A DNA stretch of 64,000 nt from Nymphaea colorata. Lineage: Eukaryota; Streptophyta; Magnoliopsida; Nymphaeales; Nymphaeaceae. Numbering within the stretch: the stretch's first letter is position 1; each line of letters begins with the position of its first letter. Location: the NCBI RefSeq assembly GCF_008831285.2, contig NC_045143.1, positions 22,072,302 to 22,136,301 on the forward strand, read 5' to 3'. This document shows, one piece after another, positions 632 to 64,000 of this stretch. The position numbers and the translations under genes are program-made. Below the pieces are notes generated by a model that was not told the origin of the DNA, did no database searches, and was given only the letters and a program-made list of their open reading frames with translations.

Positions 632-1586
632 CTAGTTTGATTGGATGGTGGCTGAGCAGGCAGAGGGAGTGTTGGGTAAGGGAGGTATCATAGGTAAAAG
701 AATAGGTATTGATGTGGTGGTAGGATGGGTAACATCAAGTGGTTTTGGCTGATCAAGGAAAGGAAAATTTAACTCATTGAACACAACATGTCGCTTGACA
801 ATGATTTTGGAACTTTGTAGGTTGTAACATAAGTATCCATTGTGGACATTAGAATACCCAAAAAAGACATGTTTGGAGGATTTGGGCTGAAGCTTGTGGT
901 CGTGATAAGGTTGTAGGTTTGGGTAGACAGTGCAGCCAAACACTCGCAGAAAGGTATAATTTGGAGTTCATTTGTGTAAAGTTTTAAAGGGAGACTTGCC
1001 TTTGAGTCCGGTTGTAGGAACACAGTTCAATAAGTATGTTGTTGTGCTGAATGAATATGTCCAAATTTCTGCTAGAACGCCTCCATGTTTAAGAAGAGAG
1101 AGACCCATTTCTACAATGGTGCGATGTTTCCTTTCAGCAGTGTCATTCTGCTCATGTGAATACGGACATGAAATTTTCCTTCAATACCATGATCTTGAAA
1201 TAATTTGTTAAGCGATGCATACTCACCACCACCGTCAGATTGGAAAAATTTAATTTTTGTATCATATATATTTTCAACTTTCACCTTGATGCTTTAAACG
1301 CCTTTTCAACATCAGACTTATATGCTAGAAAGTAAATCTATGTAAACTTAGAGTATTCATCTATAAAGTTGACATAGTATCGATATCTATCTTTGCTAAT
1401 CACGGGCGCGAGACCCCAGACATCTGAGTGAACAACTTCTAAAGGTTTAGTGTCCTTATGATCTGATTGAGTAAAAGAAAGAGCATGTGATTTCTTATAT
1501 TGGCAAGCATCACAAAAATAGTTGTTTTTGACATCATAGTCAAAAGGAAGTTGAAATTGTCTCAAAATAAAATTAACAGTATTCAA
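632..1586 (-). pseudogene. copia integrase region (degenerate)
   Basis: The segment 1586-1338 carries the end of the GAG-pre-integrase zinc-binding module (YFCDACQYKKSHALSF) followed by the integrase core opening HSDVWG and then FIDEYSKFT. The D of HSDVWG is the first acidic residue of the DDE triad. Downstream, in other frames, a second-acidic-residue-like FFQSDGGGEY stretch can be read near 1240. At 943-632 the C-terminal integrase part appears, with the typical MFGCTVYP and HVFFGYSNVHNGYLCYN block. At least two frame changes separate these pieces. This is a fossil integrase, confidently copia-type. Confidence 0.85.
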
Positions 1587-1597
1587 GGCAGGATGTC

Positions 1598-2040
1598 CTA
1601 GTCTAGCATGCCATCTACTAACTGTCGTCCGTTATCCATATAATGCCACCTTCTCAATTTGATGCTGATTGATTTTTGGTTGTGGGAGTTGAAGACGATA
1701 AAGGTCATTGTTACTCTTCCTTGAAGTATCACCACCCGTGTACGCTGGTCCTTCACCACACAATGATCAGCAGAAAATTCAAACACAACTTGATTATCCT
1801 TGCAGCATTTATTTACAGATAAGAGATTATGAACCATTTTAGGAGCATGAAGAATATCACGCAAAGCAACAGTAGATTTAAGAAGACGAAAGAAAGCTGA
1901 CCCAATGTTTTTAATGTACACACATGTTCCATCTCAAACCTTGACGGTGTCATTGCCTTCATAAGGTTCATGAATAGTCATCAACCCAAGAGAATTGGTG
2001 ACGTTATGGGTTGCTCCTGTGTCAAGATCCAGTTTGCATC
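1598..2040 (-). pseudogene. copia protease and GAG-pre-integrase linker (frameshifted)
   Basis: A retropepsin active-site motif, DTGATHNVTN, is readable on the minus strand at about 2025-1990. It is in a different frame from the gag reading that precedes it (…DANWIL), so a one-base indel sits right at the junction. The segment 1921-1598 then gives the usual downstream text, including DILHAPKMVHNLLSV, which precedes integrase in copia polyproteins. The protease motif itself is intact at residue level but cannot be translated in line with gag. Confidence 0.8.
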
Positions 2041-3033
2041 ATCTAGCATATGTGGAGTTGAGTGATATACCTGAGCATTTGAGGATGGTGACAAGTTTGT
2101 GTTGGTAATAGTTGTTCCGTTGTGATCTTTCTTTGCTATTTTAAAGCAAGTCTTGGCGCTATGACCCATTTTATCACAAAATTGACAAATAATACGATTT
2201 CTTCTACCAAAATCAGACCTGTCATGTCCTGCATCAGATCTGCCACGACCTCGACCACGGCCCCTTTGAATCATTGAGGGTTGTCTTCGGTTGAAATTTT
2301 TCCTAGTCATTGAATATGGTTGGGCATAATGGGCAGTAGGAGTAAACGTTTCGTGCTCAAAATGATGATCTTTAAGTTGTGTCTCTTGAGTGAGTAGTAG
2401 GCCGTGCAGCCACTGAGAGATATCAGATCTACTCGAGTGGTCAAAGAAGTTTTGAAAGCTGAGTATTCTCGAAGAAGTCCTCTCAAAATGTGCATAATTA
2501 AGTCTTCCTCTTCTCTGGTTTTGATGCAACAGCAAGTTGGTGAGCCAACATATTGGCTTTATAAAAATAATCATCCATAGTTAAATTTCCTTTTCGAAGT
2601 CCTTGTAGTTGTTCCTTGAGTTGTATCATTCTTGAGTGGGAATGAGCAGTATAGGACCATTTAAGAGCATTTCATACCTCATACGACTTCTTGAGCCCAA
2701 CTACTTGCACAACAACAGTTTCAAACAGTGAGGAGATAATACAACTTAAGAGAAGTTGATCTTGCCTCATCCAAGTCACATATTCAGGATTAATAGATTG
2801 AGATCTCCCAACACTACTAGTGATATATTGATTCAGACATGGTTTAGAACCATCGATGAACCCAAGCAAATCATATGAATATAGTAGAAGTAGAAATTGT
2901 GATTCCCACAGTAAAAAAAATTATCTGTAGTCAACTTGATGTTCAAATATTGTTGTAAAGTGGTTGGTGCAGGCAGTAAAGGTAGATCAGTACCTTGCAA
3001 TGACGTCTGAGTTACAGCTCCGTTTGATGCCAT
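1981..3033 (-). pseudogene. copia gag with CCHC zinc knuckle (degenerate)
   Basis: The ATG at 3033-3031 opens a gag-like frame (MASNGAVTQTSLQ…) that is soon interrupted. Further gag text follows at 2869-2672 and 2574-1981 in other frames. The latter contains a Gly-Arg-rich RGRGRGRGR stretch and a nucleic-acid-binding zinc knuckle, CQFCDKMGHSAKTC (CX2CX4HX4C), at about 2195-2150. These are the normal features of a UBN2-type copia gag: RNA binding and capsid assembly in the cytoplasm. Several frameshifts make it non-functional. Confidence 0.82.
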
Positions 3034-3556
3034 AATGAATTACGAATCTGGTCAAGTTTGGAGCTATTGAAGCCTCAACGGAATGAAGGTACTTTCTGCT
3101 ATAAAGTCGCAGTGAACGATCACCTTAGGAGACAACACCAGTCAATAAACAGGAAGGGCAGAAATAGCAACTGTTCCTCCTGTTTCTCAACCAGCGATGC
3201 TTCAAAAATCAAGTGCTTGCTTCTCCAAGCCCCAAAAAATCTGCAAAAGCACTGGGAGCATCATCACATGTCCATGAAACGTTTGGATTCCTGCTCGACA
3301 GCTGGAGTGACCGATTTTGACAACACCAGCACAAAAAGATACCGTGAACAGGTAGGCAGAACTTCCTCTGTTTTTCCTTTGTTTCAGCAACAGGGAGTGA
3401 TCGTTAATTTCCTCCAGCTCTAGAAAAAAATGCAGAAACGCCTTGGGGCATGATATGCAAAAGCCTTGGGTTATTCTGGACTCTACCCGACGACAAGAGT
3501 TGTCGGACTTGAACACGCTAGTAGAGATTCTCATCGTGAGTGGTAATTTCCGGTGG
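3034..3556 (-). other. Probable copia leader segment upstream of gag
   Basis: This non-coding stretch lies between gag and solo LTR-A. If LTR-A and one copy of its 5-bp duplication are ignored, it becomes continuous with 7180-7209, just downstream of the primer site. It is therefore most simply the copia untranslated leader. A 133-codon minus-strand frame (3603-3202) overlaps LTR-A and has no recognisable domain, so I do not call it a gene. Confidence 0.5.
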
Positions 3557-3707
3557 AAGGCTGTAATCACCCCAAATTTTTCTAAAAGATTATGATGTTT
3601 CATCCAAGCACGAAACTCAAATTTAGATCCAAATTAAATCCAAAATACAACTTCCATATCCAAATTAGATCCAAAATCCAAGTTCAGATCTAAATCGATC
3701 ATTTAAG

Positions 3708-4257
3708 ACCCATTTGCCCCTCCTTTTGACCAAAAAATCTCTTTTTAGATGGTGATTTTAGTCTTTTTTTGTGGACAAGACCAATTTGCCCTTCTTTTTG
3801 ACCAAAAAATCTCCTTTTAGAGGGTGATTTTAGACTTTTTTGGTGGACAAGACCAATTTGCCCTTCCTTTTGATAAAAAAATCTTCTTTTAGAGGATGAT
3901 TTTAGTCTTTTTGGGTGGATAAGACCAATTTGCCCCTCCTTTTGACCAAAAAATCTCCTTTTAGAGGGCGATTTTAGTTTTTTTGGGTGAACAAGACCAA
4001 TTTGCCCTTCCTTTTGACAAAAAAAATCTCCTTTTAGAGGGTGATTTTAGTCTTTTTGGGTGGACAACCAAAAAACCTCCTTTTAGAGGGTAATTTTAGT
4101 CTTTTTGGGTGGACAAGACCCATTTGCCCTTTCTTTTGAATAAAAAAACCTCCTTTTAGAGGGTAATTTTAGTCTTTTTGGGTGGACAAGACCCATTTGT
4201 CCTTCCTTTTGACCAAAAAATCTTCTTTTAGAGGGTGATTTTAGTCTTTTTAGGTCA
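3708..4257 (+). repeat. 72-bp tandem repeat array in U3 of LTR-A
   Basis: About eight head-to-tail units with a period of about 72 bp. Each has the core AAAAAATCTCCTTTTAGAGG followed by a GATTTTAGTCTTTTTGGGTGG-like stretch. Units differ by scattered substitutions and one is shortened. The array ends about 40 bp upstream of the TATA box, where LTR enhancers commonly sit. LTR-B carries the same array with about five units. Confidence 0.85.
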
Positions 4258-4294
4258 AAAAATTCAAATTTAGGGTTTTGGCTCCAAAATCTTT

Positions 4295-4302
4295 TATAAA
4301 TA
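4295..4302 (+). promoter_or_regulatory. TATA box of LTR-A
   Basis: The octamer TATAAATA follows the U3 tandem array. About 30 bp downstream begins CT-rich sequence suited to a transcription start. The same octamer is at the equivalent place in LTR-B (10705-10712, minus), so the promoter core is conserved between copies. Confidence 0.6.
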
Positions 4303-4559
4303 CCCATCATTTTCCCCTCTCTTGGGTAAGATTGGCCCTTGGGAGAAACTCCAGTGTATTCTCACTTGAAGACTTAGAGTTTCTCTTGAGCTCTCTCTCT
4401 CTCCTTCTTCCTCTCTCCATTTTCCTCTCCAACTTGGAGCAAGCTACAACCCTCTTGGAGGCATCATCTTGGAGCTTCACTCAAAGGGGATTTTCAAGTA
4501 AATGTGTTTATCTTCCTTAAGTCATTTTTCATTAGAGGTATGTAATCATCATCCCTCTC

Positions 4560-5560
4560 ATTTCTTTTTCTTTTTTTTCTTTTCTCTTATCTTTATATCC
4601 TCATGGCCAAAGGAGATAGCACTCAACCTCTTTTTAGAGACAAGAGGCTATGCTCAAGTGCACCGAGAGCATGAGAAGATGAGATGATATTTTATTTTAT
4701 GATTAAATCATGTTCTTTCAAGTATTCTTGTTGTTGTTGTTATTTTTCATTAATATGTTCTTATTATTATGCTATTCATTTTTCTTGAACATAGTCTTGT
4801 TGATTGTTTTCATTTTATCTTCTCATCTTCATCTCCCCATGGCCAAAGGAGATAGCACTCAACCTCTTTTAGAGACAAGAAACTATGCTTAAGTGCACCG
4901 GGAGCATGAGAAGATGAGATGATATTTTATTTTATGATTAAATCATGCTCTTTCAAGTATTCTTGTTGTTGTTGTTCTTTCTCTTCATGAATATATTCTT
5001 GTTGTTATTGTTATTTTCTTTCTTCAATATAACCTTGCTCTTGTTATTTTCTTTTCTCTCTTCCTCCTCTCCCCATAGCCAAAGGAGATAGCACTCAATC
5101 TCTTTTTAGAAACAAGAGGCTATGCTCAAGTGCATTGGGAGCATGAAAGGATTAGATGATCTTTCATTTCGTGATTGAATCATGTTTTCTCTTTTATTAA
5201 ATATGGCATTGTTTTTCTTTCTGCATTTTCTCCTCATCTTCATCTCCCTATGGCTAAAGGAGGTAGCACTTAATCTCTTTTTAGAGACAAGAGGCTATGC
5301 TCAAGTGCACTGGGAGCATGAAAAAATAGCTCTTTCATTTTAATCATGTTCTTTATTTTCATTAATACATTCTTGTTGTTCTTTTGCTTCCTCTTATTTT
5401 CCTCTATTCCCTATTTTCCCATGGCCAAAGGAGATAGCTTTCAATCTCTATTTTAGAGTCAAGAGGTTATACTCAAGTGCACCGGGAACATGAGAAGATG
5501 AGGTGACATATCATTTCATAGTTACATCATGTCCTCCCTCCTAATTGAACCTTGTACTTT
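4560..5560 (+). repeat. Five diverged tandem blocks in LTR-A
   Basis: Five copies of a 170-240 bp block start near 4603, 4839, 5076, 5250 and 5418. Each opens with ATGGCCAAAGGAGATAGCAC or a close variant and continues with text around GAGACAAGAGGCTATGCTCA and a GAGCATGAGAAGATGAG-like end, then a T-rich spacer. The first bases read as a short Met-Ala-Lys-Gly-Asp frame in several copies, but the frame is not kept across the block. LTR-B has six such blocks. Confidence 0.75.
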
Positions 5561-7209
5561 CCGTCATCCTCTTTCTCTTTTTCCTTCCTTGAATGTTGTC
5601 TATATATTTTTCATACACAGTTGCTTTGTTTTCTACTTATATGTGAATGCATGGTGGGGATGAGAGTGTGGTTTGGGGACTTTTTATTTTCATATTAATT
5701 TTTGAGGTTGGGACTTGTCCAACCCGGGATAAACCCTCACAAAAATATACATGTTAATATGCATTTGCATGTCATTTTGCGCTAGTTTCCTTCTTAACCA
5801 TCCCATTAGGAACCCTAACGAGTGTCTCGTTATGTTGCTTGTTTTCTTCCATACCCAACGGTGGAAGAAATATATCCCTTACAACAAACTAAATAATAAC
5901 ATTTTATGTTTATTTTCAAAAACATTTTCAAAAGGAACCTTCAAACATGGCCTTAGGGACTTAGCTTAGACTCTTACATGAGTCCAAGCTCCCCTGCGGC
6001 CCACATAAAACTTGAAGTTGGTAATTTTAAGTTGTTCCTTGATTTCTAATCTTGTGAAGATATGGATGTATACACATGTTACATACATCTTTGCCAACAT
6101 GATGACCCCCCATCTTTCTCCCTCTATGCTTTCACTTTTCATTTTATAAATTTTCATATGTGCATGAATGCGTATGTACATGTGCTCCATTTCCTCTCTT
6201 TCAAATATTTATTTCTCTTTTCAAGACAAATATCTTCTCTTATAAAATTTCTCATACTCATATAGACGTATGATATTTTTATTTTCCTCTAAAATCTTTC
6301 TTTCTCTTCAAATCAATACATATTTTTCTCTTAATCTTTCATATATGTGTATATGTGATGGTATGTACACATATATGCATGTCTTTCTCTATCTCTCTCT
6401 TTCTTTTCATAAGAGTGTTTTATCTCTTGTATTCTTTTTAACATTCTCCTCTCACGAACTTTCTATTTACCAACTTCATTAAGACCACAAACCAAGTAAT
6501 GACTCAATATTGGAATCATGGTAGATGGTTTACAATCCCTATCCCTTTTCAAAAACTTTTTCTTCTTATATACAATAATTATAACAACGTAATCTTAGAT
6601 GTATGTTGTAGTAGGAATGACTTTAGATGAATGTTGTGGTATGAATGTTTTACATTCTTTCAATCATATAGGATAAATGCATCCATACATTCTCACCCAC
6701 TTTATTTCACTTATGATCACAAGCATCTCTCCAAAAGAACTTAAGCAAGAAGGGAATGAGTTCTAGCTAGGTGGTAACCGAATTAGAGCAAAATCTCAAA
6801 CTTACTTAAAGTCTTAAGAGAACACTAAAGTGATTTCAAAATGATTTCACAAGCTTTTCAAACGATATTTACTAGTTCCACTTTTTCCCCAAAACATTTC
6901 ACATTTTCAAGCAACTCTTCAAGAACCTTTTCAAAAGTTTGAAACTTCAAACTTTTAATATTTTCTACACCGCATATAGAATCAAAAAGATGTTTAAGTT
7001 AAAACGAAATCCATCAATCATAAACATCGCCCTTGGGTTGATTACCCCTAGTAAAGGCGCCGGGAACGGTCAATCCTCGTACCGACGGACGAGTCTCTTT
7101 CTTTCCTCTTTCAAAACAAAAACCTCATTTTTTTGGAGCACTCCAAAACCAATGAAAATTTTGGGATGCAAACAAAGGCACAATCTGTTTTCAATAGCTG
7201 CTTTTTACA

Positions 7210-55594: not shown

Positions 55595-56200
55595 CTATGC
55601 TAGAAAATTTATCTCATGAAGCTTTCCAAAGGATGATCTGCTTCCTAATGACATGAAGCTTATAGGAGAGCCTAAAAGTAGTCCACCTCCCCGTGACATG
55701 CCTACTCCACCAATGAAGGATGGCAGAGACAAAACTTTGATCACGGAGCCACCACAATTCAAACCAAAAATGAGGAGAAGAACAAATGTGGAGATGACTA
55801 GACAAGTCGGCCAAAAGGGAGGCATGATCAAAGAGGTGCATGGGAACCACCAAAGCAAAAGTATGAGGGTAGAAAGAGAGCATGTCTGAGGACAAAAAAA
55901 TCTGGTCATGCCTACGAGACAGAGGAGGCGAGTGATTATTGAACCAGGTGAATTCAACATCGACCAACAAGACATCATACAAACCATGAGTGATGACAAA
56001 ACAAGAAAAAAATGACGTGGAGGCAGAGGCAATGATAGTGACAAAACCAGATGAGTCACTGGGATTGAGGAGACAGTTGAAATCATTAGTGAGCAACCAA
56101 GGGTCATCGCAAAGAGAGAGAGAAAGAGAGAGCTGATAAAATGAGAATTCATAATAAAATTTGGGGACAAGAAGTCTCCTAGATACAAAAGCAAACCGCA
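55595..56200 (-). pseudogene. LINE-B endonuclease, C-terminal half (degenerate)
   Basis: The reading DPWLLTNDFNCLLNPSDSSGF matches the D-F-N core of plant LINE endonucleases, followed by EFTWFNNH and later FWFELWWLRDQSFV, which parallels FRFELWWLRDESFV in LINE-A. Upstream parts are missing, being replaced by the 3' end of LINE-A. Confidence 0.7.
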
Positions 56201-56298
56201 AAAAACAAAAATAAAAAAAAAATAAAATATACAAGACAATCGCACGACAAAACAAAATAAGAGGGGTGGGGAGGGAGTGGATAGAAGGAGCGACACAA

Positions 56299-57146
56299 TC
56301 ACCTAGCCGCAGACCGAACACGGCGCCGCAGCCTTATAGCAAACTGGACATCCCCCTGCACAAGACGAGTTACAAAATTTGGTGATGAGAAGGTGCCCCT
56401 GAAGACCCTGTTGTTGCGCTCCTCCCAAATACGCCACCAAGAGGAAATGAGCCACAACTTCCAGACACGACCCCAGGAAATGGATAGGTGGGGGAAGGAT
56501 AAAAGAGAAAAAAAAGACAAATGAAAGTGGATCTGAAAGGCTACTAACAAGAGAAAGACATCTAGAGGCAAGAACACCAAGAAAGAAAGGGCAAGAAGTA
56601 AAAAAGTGGATACGAGACTGAGCCGCGGTGAGACAAAGTGGACATTGGTTAACTGAACTGATGTCAAGGTGCTATAAGTAGTCAAAAGTATTGATGTGGC
56701 CAACAAGAAGAAGTCAGACAAAAACAATGACATGAGGAAAAGGGCCAAGGGAATGGGGGAGGGGGCAATGCAACGAAAGAACCAAATGAGGCCAGGTAGC
56801 AAGAAGAAAGTGAATCCACTGGAAGGTAAAAGAGGCCAGGATGAGGGTGCGAACGAAGGGATGTCAGTAAGGTGGAGGAAAAGTGGAAGGGCATAAAGCA
56901 TGTCACACCAAATGTGGGACATAGATGTGTGAGAGATGGAACTATTTTAAACACTAGGGGAAGATATGTCAAATTTGGAATAAATGAACAATGTGATGGG
57001 ATAATGCTCAATTGCCAAACACCACCACCAAGAACATAGAGAGGACTCACATGCCTAACTAAAGTTGGTAATTTCAGCACCCCCAAGTATAAGCGGGAGG
57101 GCAACCATATCCCAATGCGCAATGTAATTCGAAGGCCGATCACCAT
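56299..57146 (-). pseudogene. LINE-A C-terminal (zf-RVT) region
   Basis: Overlapping frames at 57146-56682 and 56922-56299 cover the zf-RVT region and end with WRIWEERNNRVFRGTF, the standard closing motif of this LINE type. A frameshift separates the two parts. Confidence 0.7.
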
Positions 57147-58400
57147 CGCAGATAAATCTACAAATGATCTTATTAAACCTTCTCAGAATAGCTACAAGAG
57201 GTCGAAAGACCGTCAGAGCATGAAATGGGACAGACGCATGATAATGTTTAGCAAAAATAATACGATCTAGGAGAGAAAGCAGCTTTTCATGCCAACACTG
57301 AAGGCGATCCATAAGTTTCTGCTCCACTGCAATCCAAAAGAAAGGTGCAGGAGGCGACAGCGTAATCTGAAAACCCAAGTAGTCCATGGGCAGACCAACA
57401 GCCTTACACCCAAAGCAAGCTTTCGCAAGAAGTACCATGGCCAGATCCGCGTGAATGAGAGAAATGTGACAATTAGAGGAATTAATAGAAAAACTCAAGA
57501 TAAGCTCAAAACCCTGAAGGATGAGCAAAGTTCTCACAATCTGTTGGCGGGAAGCAGTGCCAAACAGGAGAAAATCGTCAACATACTGAGAGGTGGAGAA
57601 GGCTTGTAAGTGGGGGAGGGAATGCGGTGTAAGAAAGCCAACAACCGCAGCATGACGAAATAAAGCAGAGAAACACTCGACAACTAAGTTAAAAAGCAAC
57701 GACGATAACGAACAACCCTGACAGAGGCTGCGACCGAGACAGAAGAAATCACCACACATCCCATTGAAGGAGACCGCAAGTTGCGCCCCAGTGACAAGCG
57801 AAAGGATCTATTGCCGAAACGACAGACCAAATCAAGGCGCGTGAGGAGGTGAGACAGAAACTGCTAACTAACCAAATCAAGGGCCTTAGAGATGTCCAAG
57901 TTAAGGATGAAAGAAGGAAGACGCAGGTAGTATAGGGAGTGAACAACCTCATTGGCCATGACAAAAGCATCCTGCAAATGCCGACCCTTGATGAATGCTT
58001 CCTGGAAGGAGTTAGTGATAGAAGACATAACAGACGCAAGGCGCAAGGAAAGCAACTTAGCAATAATCTTGTAAGGTATGCCTAAGATAGAGATCGAGCA
58101 AAAATGGCTGACGTCCCTAGGGTTAGGATGCTTAGACACCAAGACGCAGGTGGTTTGATTAAATTCCTTAAGAAAGATAGGAGTTGGAGGCAAATTCATC
58201 ACAAAACACAAATATATCAGCGCTACAAGACTCTCAAAATGTGCAAAAAAATTCAATAGGGAAACCATAAATGTTGGATGCCTTACCAGAGCCGAGGGCC
58301 CAAACAACATTCTTGATTTCTTGGTGCACAAAGGGTTGCTCAAGAGAGATCGCACACGAGACGGAGAGGGATGAGAGGTGAAAGTCTGGCAGAGGGGCAT
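57055..58400 (-). pseudogene. LINE-A reverse transcriptase
   Basis: The best-kept RT in the window. Blocks include TTCVLVSKHPNPRDVSHF, YKIIAKLLSLRLASVM, FILNLDISKALDLVS (58400-57864, first Asp kept), then in a second frame (57759-57055) GCSLSSLLFNLVVE, QYVDDFLLF (57588-57562, catalytic pair intact) and LPMDYLGFQITLS. A break near 57760-57865 separates the two halves. The protein would copy the element's RNA at the target nick. Confidence 0.85.
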
Positions 58401-58839
58401 GGAAGCAAAGAGGCTTAGAGTAGAAATCTCGAAAATGAGCAGTCAAAGTCGAGAGAATGTCATCACCTAGAAAAACTCTGTGTCCAATGACCATAGACTG
58501 AAGCAAAGTTTGACGGCACCTCTGAGAGGCAGCCAAGTAGAAGAATGTAGAATTCTGGTCTCCATACAAAAGCCAACCCAGTCGAGAACGGTGCTGCCAA
58601 TGGATGGACTCCCTAATCCGCCATTCATGAGCAAGATACTGGAGACAAAGGAGACGAAGAGATTGATCCGTAGAAATGTTGTCAACAGACTGGAGGGACA
58701 GAATCTTCTCATTCCAAACGGTCACCTCAGAAAACTTGCCGCTCCAGAAAATGCTCTTTTAGGCAAAGACCTCCCTCCTGATGGAATGTAACTTTCGTGA
58801 GAGCCTGAAAGCAGCCCAACTACCGTTGAAGGTGCGAGC

Positions 58840-61308: not shown

Positions 61309-61536
61309 ACCCTAGCTAGGGCTGTTCAACGAGTCGAGCTACTCGAACTCGACTCGTTTAACTCGACTCGTATGTTTAAACGAGCTGCTTATTTAGTTAA
61401 ACGAGTCGAGCTCGAGTTGACGAGCCGACTCGTTTAATTAATCGAGTCGAGTTCGAGTTCATGTGAGGAAACTCGTTAAACTCGAATCGGCTCGATTATT
61501 TAGTAAACCAGTTTTTTTAAAACCGGTTCAAAATCA

Positions 61537-61890
61537 AGATGAGAAAGCGCCAAGGCGGGAAGAATTTTAGGGTTTCTCATATCATTTCCTTTTTGCGTTT
61601 TCGCTCTCTCCTCTCCGAGTCCGACTCTCCCTCTCTCCGTCTCTCGCCTGACGCCTCTCTCCCCCTCGCGCAACTCTCCCGACGATTACCACGTCGTCTC
61701 CTCATCAGTCATCCCTTCACGTAAGTCTCCTTCTCTCTCTATCCAAACCGACACCTAAACCCTAATTTTTCTTCTTATATTCCCCCCTCCCTCTGGGCCG
61801 TTTGTTTGATGGTTCTCTCGCTATCTCTGGTTTTATTTCCGTTCAGGAGAAAAATCGAGGTGCTCCGCAAGAATGGATGCACTCTGGTAG
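61537..61890 (+). pseudogene. Captured 5' gene fragment with splice sites, inside the hAT element
   Basis: An exon-like stretch with a short frame starting ATG at 61539 and a CT-rich, plant-5'-UTR-like text ends at 61720 with the donor CAC|GTAAGT. A second exon-like piece, 61847-61890, follows the acceptor TTCAG and ends at the donor GTAG|GTGAGT. The retained intron (61721-61846) shows that the piece was taken from DNA, not from spliced RNA. The source gene is not recognised. Confidence 0.5.
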
Positions 61891-62694
61891 GTGAGTTCGC
61901 TTTTTCTGCTACTGGAGTTCCCTTTTATTTTTGAACCTCATACTTGTGATCACGTGGGGATCATCTGGATTTCTTGTTTGAAAAGTTTAAAGGTCGGTAA
62001 TGACGTTGAACGCGGTTGAATTTCTTGGTCAGTAACACTAGTAGGGTTATTTTTTGTTTGATTAGTGCACTTAGATTATTTGCACGTGCAAGTGTGTTGC
62101 TCTCTTTGCTGCCTAAGTTGATAAACAAAATTCTAGAACGTGGAAATCTGATTTCCTCGTTTGTGTTGGAAAGTGGGAGAAGCTGGAAGATGACATTCGA
62201 CCGTAATGCTACTCCAAATTAACCAGTTGGTCCGTTAAATCCCACTCCCCAAAATGCTGATTAGTTTTCCAGATTGGTTCACTCTTCATGTTTTATCTTG
62301 AATGTTTCCAGATCCTTCATGTTTGTTTTTCTGAAGAATGATTTAATCTTATGCTGATAGTCTTTTAGGCGAGGAAAAAAGGGGAAAATCCTTATCGGCA
62401 TCTGACAGGTAGGAATTGATTTAAAGAACTGGGTTTCTCTTAAAGCTGCATTGTGAGTTGTTGAACTGCTTAAAATTCATGAGAAAGATCATAAGCACAC
62501 TTAAAGTTTGGTTCATCAGTTAGTAAGGAACATTCTTATGTATTAGAAGCATCACCAAGGTGTTTTCTGCAAGCATTTTTTTGTTCTTGTCCTGCTGCTG
62601 TTGACATTTATCTATCTTTTTTTTTGTTCTTGTCCTGCTGCTGTTGACATTTATCTGTCACCAAGGTGTTTTCTTGATTTTTTGGTGAGGTGTA

Positions 62695-62819
62695 CTCACT
62701 CTGATGAGAATAGCAACAATCTTCTCGACAAGTTGCAAGATGCATTTGGGAGAGGCCAGAACCCTTCCTCTGTTCTTCCCATGATTTCAGCTGAGCTTGC
62801 AACACTAACAATAGCTTGA
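62695..62819 (+). pseudogene. Unassigned exon-like segment inside the hAT element
   Basis: A frame reading HSDENSNNLLDKLQDAFGRG and then PSSVLPMISAELATL before a stop has protein-like composition, unlike surrounding chance frames. Upstream, a 52-bp text (TTTTTGTTCTTGTCCTGCTG onward) is duplicated in tandem at about 62578-62660. I do not recognise the source protein. Confidence 0.3.
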
Positions 62820-62968
62820 AAAAGATTCAACTAAGGATTGGAACAGTAAGAGAAACCCAGTTCTCTGCTAGTTGAGTAGTTTCTGCTCATGGGTAAGTTT
62901 TTGCATTTCTAAGCATCTTTTCTTAATTTTTTTTTGTTCTAAATGCAGATCTATTGGACTTTTTGCAG

Positions 62969-63075
62969 GTTCATTTTTACATTTCTTGCTATTGGGATCG
63001 TAGTATGCTTCTGCACACTCTGTGGGCATGTGGTAGCCAACAACATCAACGTCCTCCTTCTTACTTTCGTATCCT
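62969..63075 (+). pseudogene. Tetraspanin-like exon fragment inside the hAT element
   Basis: After an acceptor TTTTGCAG (62961-62968) the reading FIFTFLAIGIVVCFCTLCGH is followed by VVANNINVLLLTFV. This resembles transmembrane segment 2 and the short inner loop of plant tetraspanins of the TET18/19 type, which have a similar F-L-G-I-G…C-SGH pattern. The rest of the gene is absent or too decayed to read. The call rests on pattern memory and is moderate. Confidence 0.45.
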
Positions 63076-63943
63076 TTATTGCTGATATAGAAAAGTTGGC
63101 AAACTTCTGTGCTTTTTCCTCTGTTCCCGCTTAGAGCAGATCAAGCATCATAGGGAGTATCTGCATATAACATCTATTACAGTTGGCATGTGTTTCTCAA
63201 AGGCACTTATTTGGAACCATCTCGTGGTTTCACTTGATTGCTGCTCGTAATAGCTACCAAGGAGATTCCCCAAGTGTATTTCCCTTCTAGATGCTATTCA
63301 TTATAAAACTTCTGTGGCAATCTGATTACAGGGACGCATTTGAAAGGAGCCATATGTGCACAGGTGGGATTTGAAACTGTATTGGTCTTCGGGTTTGTTT
63401 CTACAACTATTTGAACAAAATATGTCAATGACAAATTGTTGATTTGTTGCCTTTTAGGACTCTAACCTGTATAGCATGGATAATGATAAAAAGTTCACTT
63501 CTAATGTTGTTTTTAGTTTACATTTGTGTTCAAAACTCCTAAAGATATGAGGTTATCCTCAACCTCCTTAAGTACATAGTATTCGTCTGATTATCGTTTA
63601 TTCCCAAAGTCATTTCGTCCATTCGCCGTGGCTGCCTATCATTAAAAAGAAACTATTCGTGAAAAACTACAGAAATGAGTAATATTAATCGAGCTCACGA
63701 GTTCGAGCCTTATCGAGCTTCACGTATTCGAGCTCGAGCTCAACAAGTTAGGATGCAACTAAACGAGCTTAATTGAGCTTAATCGAGCCGAGCTCGAGCT
63801 CGACCATTGACTATCGAGTCGAGTTCGAGCCAGGATAGTCGAGTTATAATCGAGTTCGAGTCGAGTCGAGCTCGTGTCTTATTTAGTCGAGCCGAGTTCG
63901 AGCTGGCCGAGCTCGGGCTCGACTCGGCTCGTGTTCAGCCCTA

Positions 63944-64000
63944 ACCCTAGCCCCCTGTGGTGGCTGCAAATGTGGAGGAGGAGGGAGGGTGGCCATGACA
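63944..64000 (-). pseudogene. LINE-A ORF1, N-terminal part
   Basis: ATG at 63996-63994 opens MATLPPPPHLQPPQGAR. With the hAT element and one 8-bp duplication ignored, the same frame runs on at 61308 for a further 67 codons to the stop at 61107. This shows the hAT entered a formerly continuous reading frame. Confidence 0.6.

Follow-up and report, generated by a model that had tools for sequence, protein, structure and literature searches.

The window analysed here is a stretch of 64,000 nucleotides of Nymphaea colorata (C6:22072302-22136301), and the genome searched comprises 407.8 Mb in 783 contigs. The genes of the window have a plant-like appearance. Near its right-hand limit the window contains a hAT element that carries pieces of several host genes between its ends. 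The features, in window coordinates, are as follows (L010, a longer relative of the element, and L030, the locus of a donor gene on C3, are described below).

61309..61316, no strand: left 8-bp target site duplication, ACCCTAGC
61317..63943, plus strand: non-autonomous hAT element of 2,627 bp, recognised by its inverted ends, its duplication, other insertions and empty-site relatives
61317..61659, plus strand: left end module (inverted end and subterminal repeats), common to hAT elements with other interiors
61662..62307, plus strand: part of a TopBP1-like BRCT gene, from the end of exon 1 through intron 1 and exon 2 into intron 2 (limits by eye), matching C1:5007564-5008200
62304..62357, plus strand: 54-bp scrap with its counterpart at C1:19747596-19747649, by eye inside a NOT3-like intron
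62351..62400 and 62398..62427, plus strand: two scraps matching a C10 locus (96% over 50 bp and 100% over 30 bp)
62420..62622, plus strand: dDENN/SCD1-like gene of C3, piece 1 (93% to L030 3959-4169)
62576..62659, plus strand: tandem duplication of period 43 within the SCD1-like cargo
62661..62816, plus strand: dDENN/SCD1-like gene of C3, piece 2, an exon (96% to L030 5537-5690)
62815..62849, minus strand: inverted 35-bp scrap of the same C3 dDENN/SCD1-like gene (97% to L030 3965-3931)
62887..62890, plus strand: junction of the putative internal deletion, with a TCAT that its two sides have in common; the absent stretch, L010 bases 1546-5770, measures 4,225 bp
62887..63589, plus strand: tetraspanin-like piece (from the last part of an intron through exon 2, which follows GCAG at 62965-62968, and another intron to the start of a further exon; limits by eye)
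63614..63943, plus strand: right end module (subterminal repeats and inverted end), common to hAT elements with other interiors
63944..63951, no strand: right 8-bp target site duplication, ACCCTAGC

Two other parts of the window resemble retrotransposons by eye: open stretches on the minus strand at 55595-58758 resemble a non-LTR (LINE-type) reverse transcriptase, and others at 172-687 and 1981-2580, also on the minus strand, resemble pieces of the Copia type.

Members of the hAT superfamily have short inverted ends of the Ac-like type TAGGG. The element begins with TAGGGCTGttcaacgag and, read on the other strand, its right end is TAGGGCTGaacacgag; TAGGGCTG is thus found at both termini in inverted orientation, in agreement with the Ac-like type, and the subterminal repeats TCGAGC/TCGAGT are dense in the element. 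The two flanking copies of ACCCTAGC are identical at 8/8 positions, 8 nt being the length of the hAT target site duplication given in the available part of PMC8903248. A sequence-only reading of the window had announced a hAT element with matching terminal repeats and a perfect 8-bp duplication at 61309-63951. Both statements are borne out, and the coordinates are exact if the two duplications are counted in, the element proper being 61317-63943. A perfect 8-bp duplication flanks 13 of the 17 elements tested (the window's included), with 13 different sequences, and imperfect ones are found at L021 and L037 (7/8), L020 (5/8) and L010 (2/8); L023, whose left end is degenerate, was excluded from this count. 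The 25-base left end has 133 matches in the genome at no more than two mismatches, against 0 for a reversed-pattern control. The flanks joined through one duplication match at least 38 other places with 75-84% identity, and 38/38 of these matches cross the insertion point (of 115 candidates 40 were scored, and two of these are the halves in the window itself). The element therefore inserted into a repeated sequence of which unbroken relatives are still present.

The ends recur without the rest. The left end module is 86-88% identical in L016-L021 and L031, in none of which the adjoining BRCT-like piece is seen, and the right end module is 90-92% identical in L016-L019, L027 and L028. Altogether, L016-L021, L031, L035, L037 and L038 have the same ends around interiors that differ in whole or in part.

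The interior of the element was compared with the genome and with protein profiles. Pfam searches on the bare window pieces gave nothing useful, and the names used here come from the donor loci. Segment 61662-62307 is identical to C1:5007564-5008200 at 616/646 positions (95%), the match running through exon, intron, exon and intron. At C1 the open frame extends upstream, and a further exon lies downstream of the matched segment (by eye). The donor exons, once joined, match PF21298 TopBP1_BRCT0 (E 6.6e-5) and ECT2_BRCT0 (E 2.9e-4), both below cut-off; the shorter BRCT-like pieces gave no BRCT match in the profile search, and the BRCT-like peptide found one RecJ-like chain in the PDB (E 0.7). 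We take this donor to be a probable TopBP1/MEI1-like gene. Against it, exon 1 of the captured piece shows a 7-bp difference and exon 2 a net difference of a single base, so that the piece is not intact as coding sequence. The 54-bp scrap next to it is 91% identical to its C1 match over 54 bp (E 6.2e-12), and the exon just downstream in the donor matches PF04153 (E 7.7e-21). The open frame of the C3 gene at piece 2 matches PF03455 dDENN (E 1.3e-4, below cut-off); SCD1-like is a presumed name for this gene.

Segment 62887-63589 is 95% identical to the minus strand of C6:5524500-5525190, where further exons lie, by eye, on either side of the match. The earlier reading had called this segment tetraspanin-like, a label that holds weakly: the joined donor peptide matches PF00335 Tetraspanin with an E of 2.2e-4, below the curated cut-off, against 3.1 for a join holding a wrong exon. 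Single tetraspanin-like exons had no Pfam match, the exon gave 0 matches against the PDB, and a genome scan for tetraspanin genes returned 13 matches, the C6 donor not among them. For TopBP1-like, SCD1-like and tetraspanin-like alike, the labels are presumed ones, given by profile matches below cut-off together with a general likeness.

The splice-like sites named in the earlier reading are all present, and each has its counterpart at the corresponding position of the C1 or C6 donor locus: GTAAGT at 61721, CAG at 61844-61846, GTGAGT at 61891 and GCAG at 62965-62968. The exon-like pieces match genes that lie outside elements in the same genome, on C1, C3 and C6, and the search for donors that this reading had proposed thus ended in contiguous exon-intron matches at these three places. 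Captured host coding DNA, which a Pack-TYPE element must carry, is present in the element, introns included. The cargo is host DNA from identifiable loci, and because introns were copied along with exons it was taken up at the DNA level, as the earlier reading had held. All pieces are partial and the BRCT-like exons differ from their donor, so they are probably passengers; that they have no coding role is the most likely reading.

Longer copies of the same element were then found. Four came from a search in which 40 of 1,569 candidates were scored, and this number is therefore a lower bound: L010 (6,837 bp), L011 (6,812 bp), L012 (6,866 bp) and L013 (6,501 bp) have ends as in the window element and the same interior, plus some 4.2 kb. 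In the four of them the cargo flanks a hAT transposase gene on both sides, in the order seen in the window; L013 is missing about 360 bp of the BRCT-like piece. Profile matches are Dimer_Tnp_hAT in L010 (E 6.9e-19; zf-BED E 0.003, below cut-off) and in L011 (E 3.5e-28), and hAT-like_RNase-H in L011 (E 5.9e-25) and in L028 (E 2.7e-27). In long copies that share these ends, PF14372 and PF05699 thus both pass the cut-off, which identifies the gene as a hAT transposase. Its frame is broken in 4/4 of the cargo-bearing long copies, so that autonomy of the lineage lacks support. L010 and L013 are part of a duplicated region (over about 1 kb their flanks are 99.1% and 98.6% identical) and have right flanks that begin alike, so the four copies represent three insertions. 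L010, L011 and L013 are all located at C16:1.10-1.21 Mb, on one contig of 1.28 Mb, and pieces of leucine-rich-repeat resistance genes adjoin L010.

The window element aligns to L010 in two blocks (1-1574 with L010 1-1545, and 1571-2627 with L010 5771-6837), collinear save for one gap, as is the case of Ds-like deletions with respect to a transposase-bearing relative. It holds only L010 bases 1-1545 and 5771-6837, outside the transposase module (L010 2467-4933), and the earlier statement that it has no transposase is correct. Since four transposase-bearing copies share its cargo, this absence is best read as a later internal deletion. The search for further copies with the same ends, also proposed in the earlier reading, yielded, besides the long copies and the other elements with common ends, a second short copy, L009, which is 99.85% identical to the window element, has the same gap and is flanked by its own duplication, CATGTGGC. 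The short form was therefore copied or moved after it arose. Other stretches of the long form are missing from L013, L014, L015 and L024.

At the junction of the window element and L009 a 4-bp overlap, TCAT, was read by eye where the alignment blocks overlap. A script reported junction overlaps in 3/14 rows (9 bp in L015, 2 bp at the join between the transposase and the tetraspanin-like piece, 2 bp at the inverted scrap) and, in the remaining 11/14, 1-60 bases matched by neither source, in part because single mismatches halted it early. The window and L009 rows, which are one junction, are among these 11, TCAT having been read by eye past a nearby mismatch. These overlaps, counted without a chance expectation, are too few to prove a mechanism.

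We thus consider it highly probable that the window element arose, in the manner of Ds, by internal deletion from a transposase-carrying hAT that had already captured several host gene fragments. A parent element with a transposase gene would have acquired pieces of several host genes to the left and to the right of that gene, perhaps during break repair, by template-switching copying or by end joining. The 4,225-bp gap would be a deletion made during break repair, with 4 bp of overlap at the join, and the short form would then move by means of transposase supplied in trans by its relatives; its mobility is suggested by the comparison of copies. That capture came first and deletion later rests on collinearity and should be read as probable; the reverse order, deletion before capture, is formally possible. 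The available part of PMC3260210 reports the proposal that capture by excising transposons stems from copying errors in break repair.

The cargo might have been acquired by another route, the aberrant excision of two neighbouring elements together with the DNA between them, a model described for Pack-CACTA in the part of PMC13317346 available, instead of by copying coupled to repair. In favour of this route, a short hAT copy of about 470 bp with both ends (L029 911-1380, C1:5006410-5006879; ends 73% and 80% identical) precedes the BRCT-like donor segment, at a distance of about 0.7 kb on its upstream side. We nevertheless judge the route unlikely: the cargo is pieced together from short scraps of several contigs, including an inverted one, which would call for many separate two-element events, and no hAT end is found beside the C6 donor within the 9.9 kb of L034.

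The earlier reading implied a self-contained Pack element devoid of transposase, and this does not stand. In its strict form such a Pack-hAT would have captured host pieces between bare hAT ends and never contained any transposase, which would suit a window copy that has none and ends that recur around other interiors. Yet in four longer copies this cargo, in unchanged order, surrounds a hAT transposase gene (L013 without about 360 bp), and the window copy corresponds to the long form lacking one block, the two sides of the join overlapping by 4 bp. This explanation is strongly disfavoured, and we give it a very small probability. An origin of the exon-like pieces as untranslated exons or introns of the transposase gene, rather than as host DNA, has a negligible probability and was rejected: they lie to either side of this gene, and all four long cargo-bearing copies retain them, but at L029, L030 and L034 the same stretches belong to longer genes that by eye continue past the match, and transposase modules 96-97% identical to L010 2467-4933 occur amid different flanking DNA, without these stretches, in L027, L028, L035, L037 and L038 (save one 25-bp match in L037, to L010 1573-1597). 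As for the C3 and C6 donor loci being themselves old hAT copies, no hAT ends were seen on both sides in L030 or L034.

A deletion derivative with captured genes has precedents, of which the closest in print, judged from the available parts of the sources, are Hatvine-6, the maize element Ds2-22 and Pack-hAT. In the grapevine family Hatvine-6 (available part of PMC2528002), transposase sequence and inverted ends are common to the elements, and the rest is often unique or present in few of them; these variable regions often match exons or introns of genes or non-genic host DNA, and deleted copies are listed. Compared on this description, the family studied here is alike in its constant transposase and ends, its variable interiors of host origin and its deleted copies. 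It differs by a duplication of 8 bp, against 9 bp listed for Hatvine-6, and by the pieces of at least three genes in one element, multi-gene elements not being mentioned in the portion of PMC2528002 available.

In maize, according to the available part of PMC3260210, Ds2-22 contains exons 5 and 6 of a host gene together with the intron, and Ds-del are internal deletions of an autonomous element. The window element resembles Ds2 and Ds-del, as described there, in its hAT ends, its 8-bp duplication and its non-autonomous state; compared with Ds2 in the same source, it is particular in that a deletion derivative and a transposase-bearing form have cargo in common and that this cargo contains pieces of at least three genes. 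Pack-hAT are listed among the Pack-TYPE elements of rice and maize in the available part of PMC8903248, where Pack-TYPE elements are by definition non-autonomous and a transposase match suffices for an element to be classed as autonomous. The window copy is similar to them in its hAT ends, 8-bp duplication, captured host DNA and lack of transposase; unlike what the definition given there supposes, the cargo is not confined to non-autonomous copies but is also found in transposase-bearing ones, the frames of which are broken.

The earlier reading was fair in remarking that capture by hAT elements has less often been described, yet capture by hAT is already in print in the three cases above (PMC2528002, PMC3260210 and PMC8903248, as far as the parts available show). 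Capture of gene scraps by hAT elements is thus known from maize and grapevine, and the window element combines known features; no new principle was found. A literature search found no paper joining Nymphaea, hAT and gene capture. The element offers an instance of hAT gene capture in which the donors are resolved, and it indicates as possible that cargo is taken up by a transposase-bearing form and then spread through deletion derivatives. A pipeline that classes all transposase-matching elements as autonomous, as described in the available text of PMC8903248, would miss the long form as a gene-capturing element.

Part of the cargo is found in the long form only, or is common to distinct elements. 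A 72-nt exon reading DLSCNLLTGPIPPILGNLTYTEIL, placed between AG and GT, is present in the long form and absent from the window copy. A matching gene on C10 (L040), with successive exons of like kind, is 89% identical over the common stretch. A separate complete hAT of 3,636 bp (C8 4595030-4598665, duplication TCTATGAT) contains a longer series of these ERECTA-like exons; over 504 bp its identity with the long form is 97.6%. ERECTA-like is a presumed name, backed by the ERL1 and ERL2 rows of the PDB search. In this search, which leucine-rich repeats swamp, the stretch passed alone only in ERL1 and ERL2 rows among 60 of 69 rows; in a longer search it did so in one ERL2 row of 40. L031, which has similar ends, has NOT3-like and SCD1-like scraps in common with the long form. 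Cargo is therefore common to distinct elements, the C8 hAT and L031 both holding pieces of that of the long form.

We read this sharing, from the matching stretches, as probable transfer between elements; alternatively, each element may have captured its exons independently from an unseen gene that is close to the two. A wider proposal is that a transposase-bearing hAT lineage builds multi-gene chimeras around its transposase and swaps cargo, its members being a shuffling pool of host exons and not one-off captors; this we regard as tentative and somewhat doubtful. At another locus, L022 (C8:22161000-22166500), the arrangement is palindrome-like: SCD1-like and ERECTA-like cargo occurs in both orientations and the BRCT-like piece in one, and right-end sequence is found on both sides, partial on one of them.
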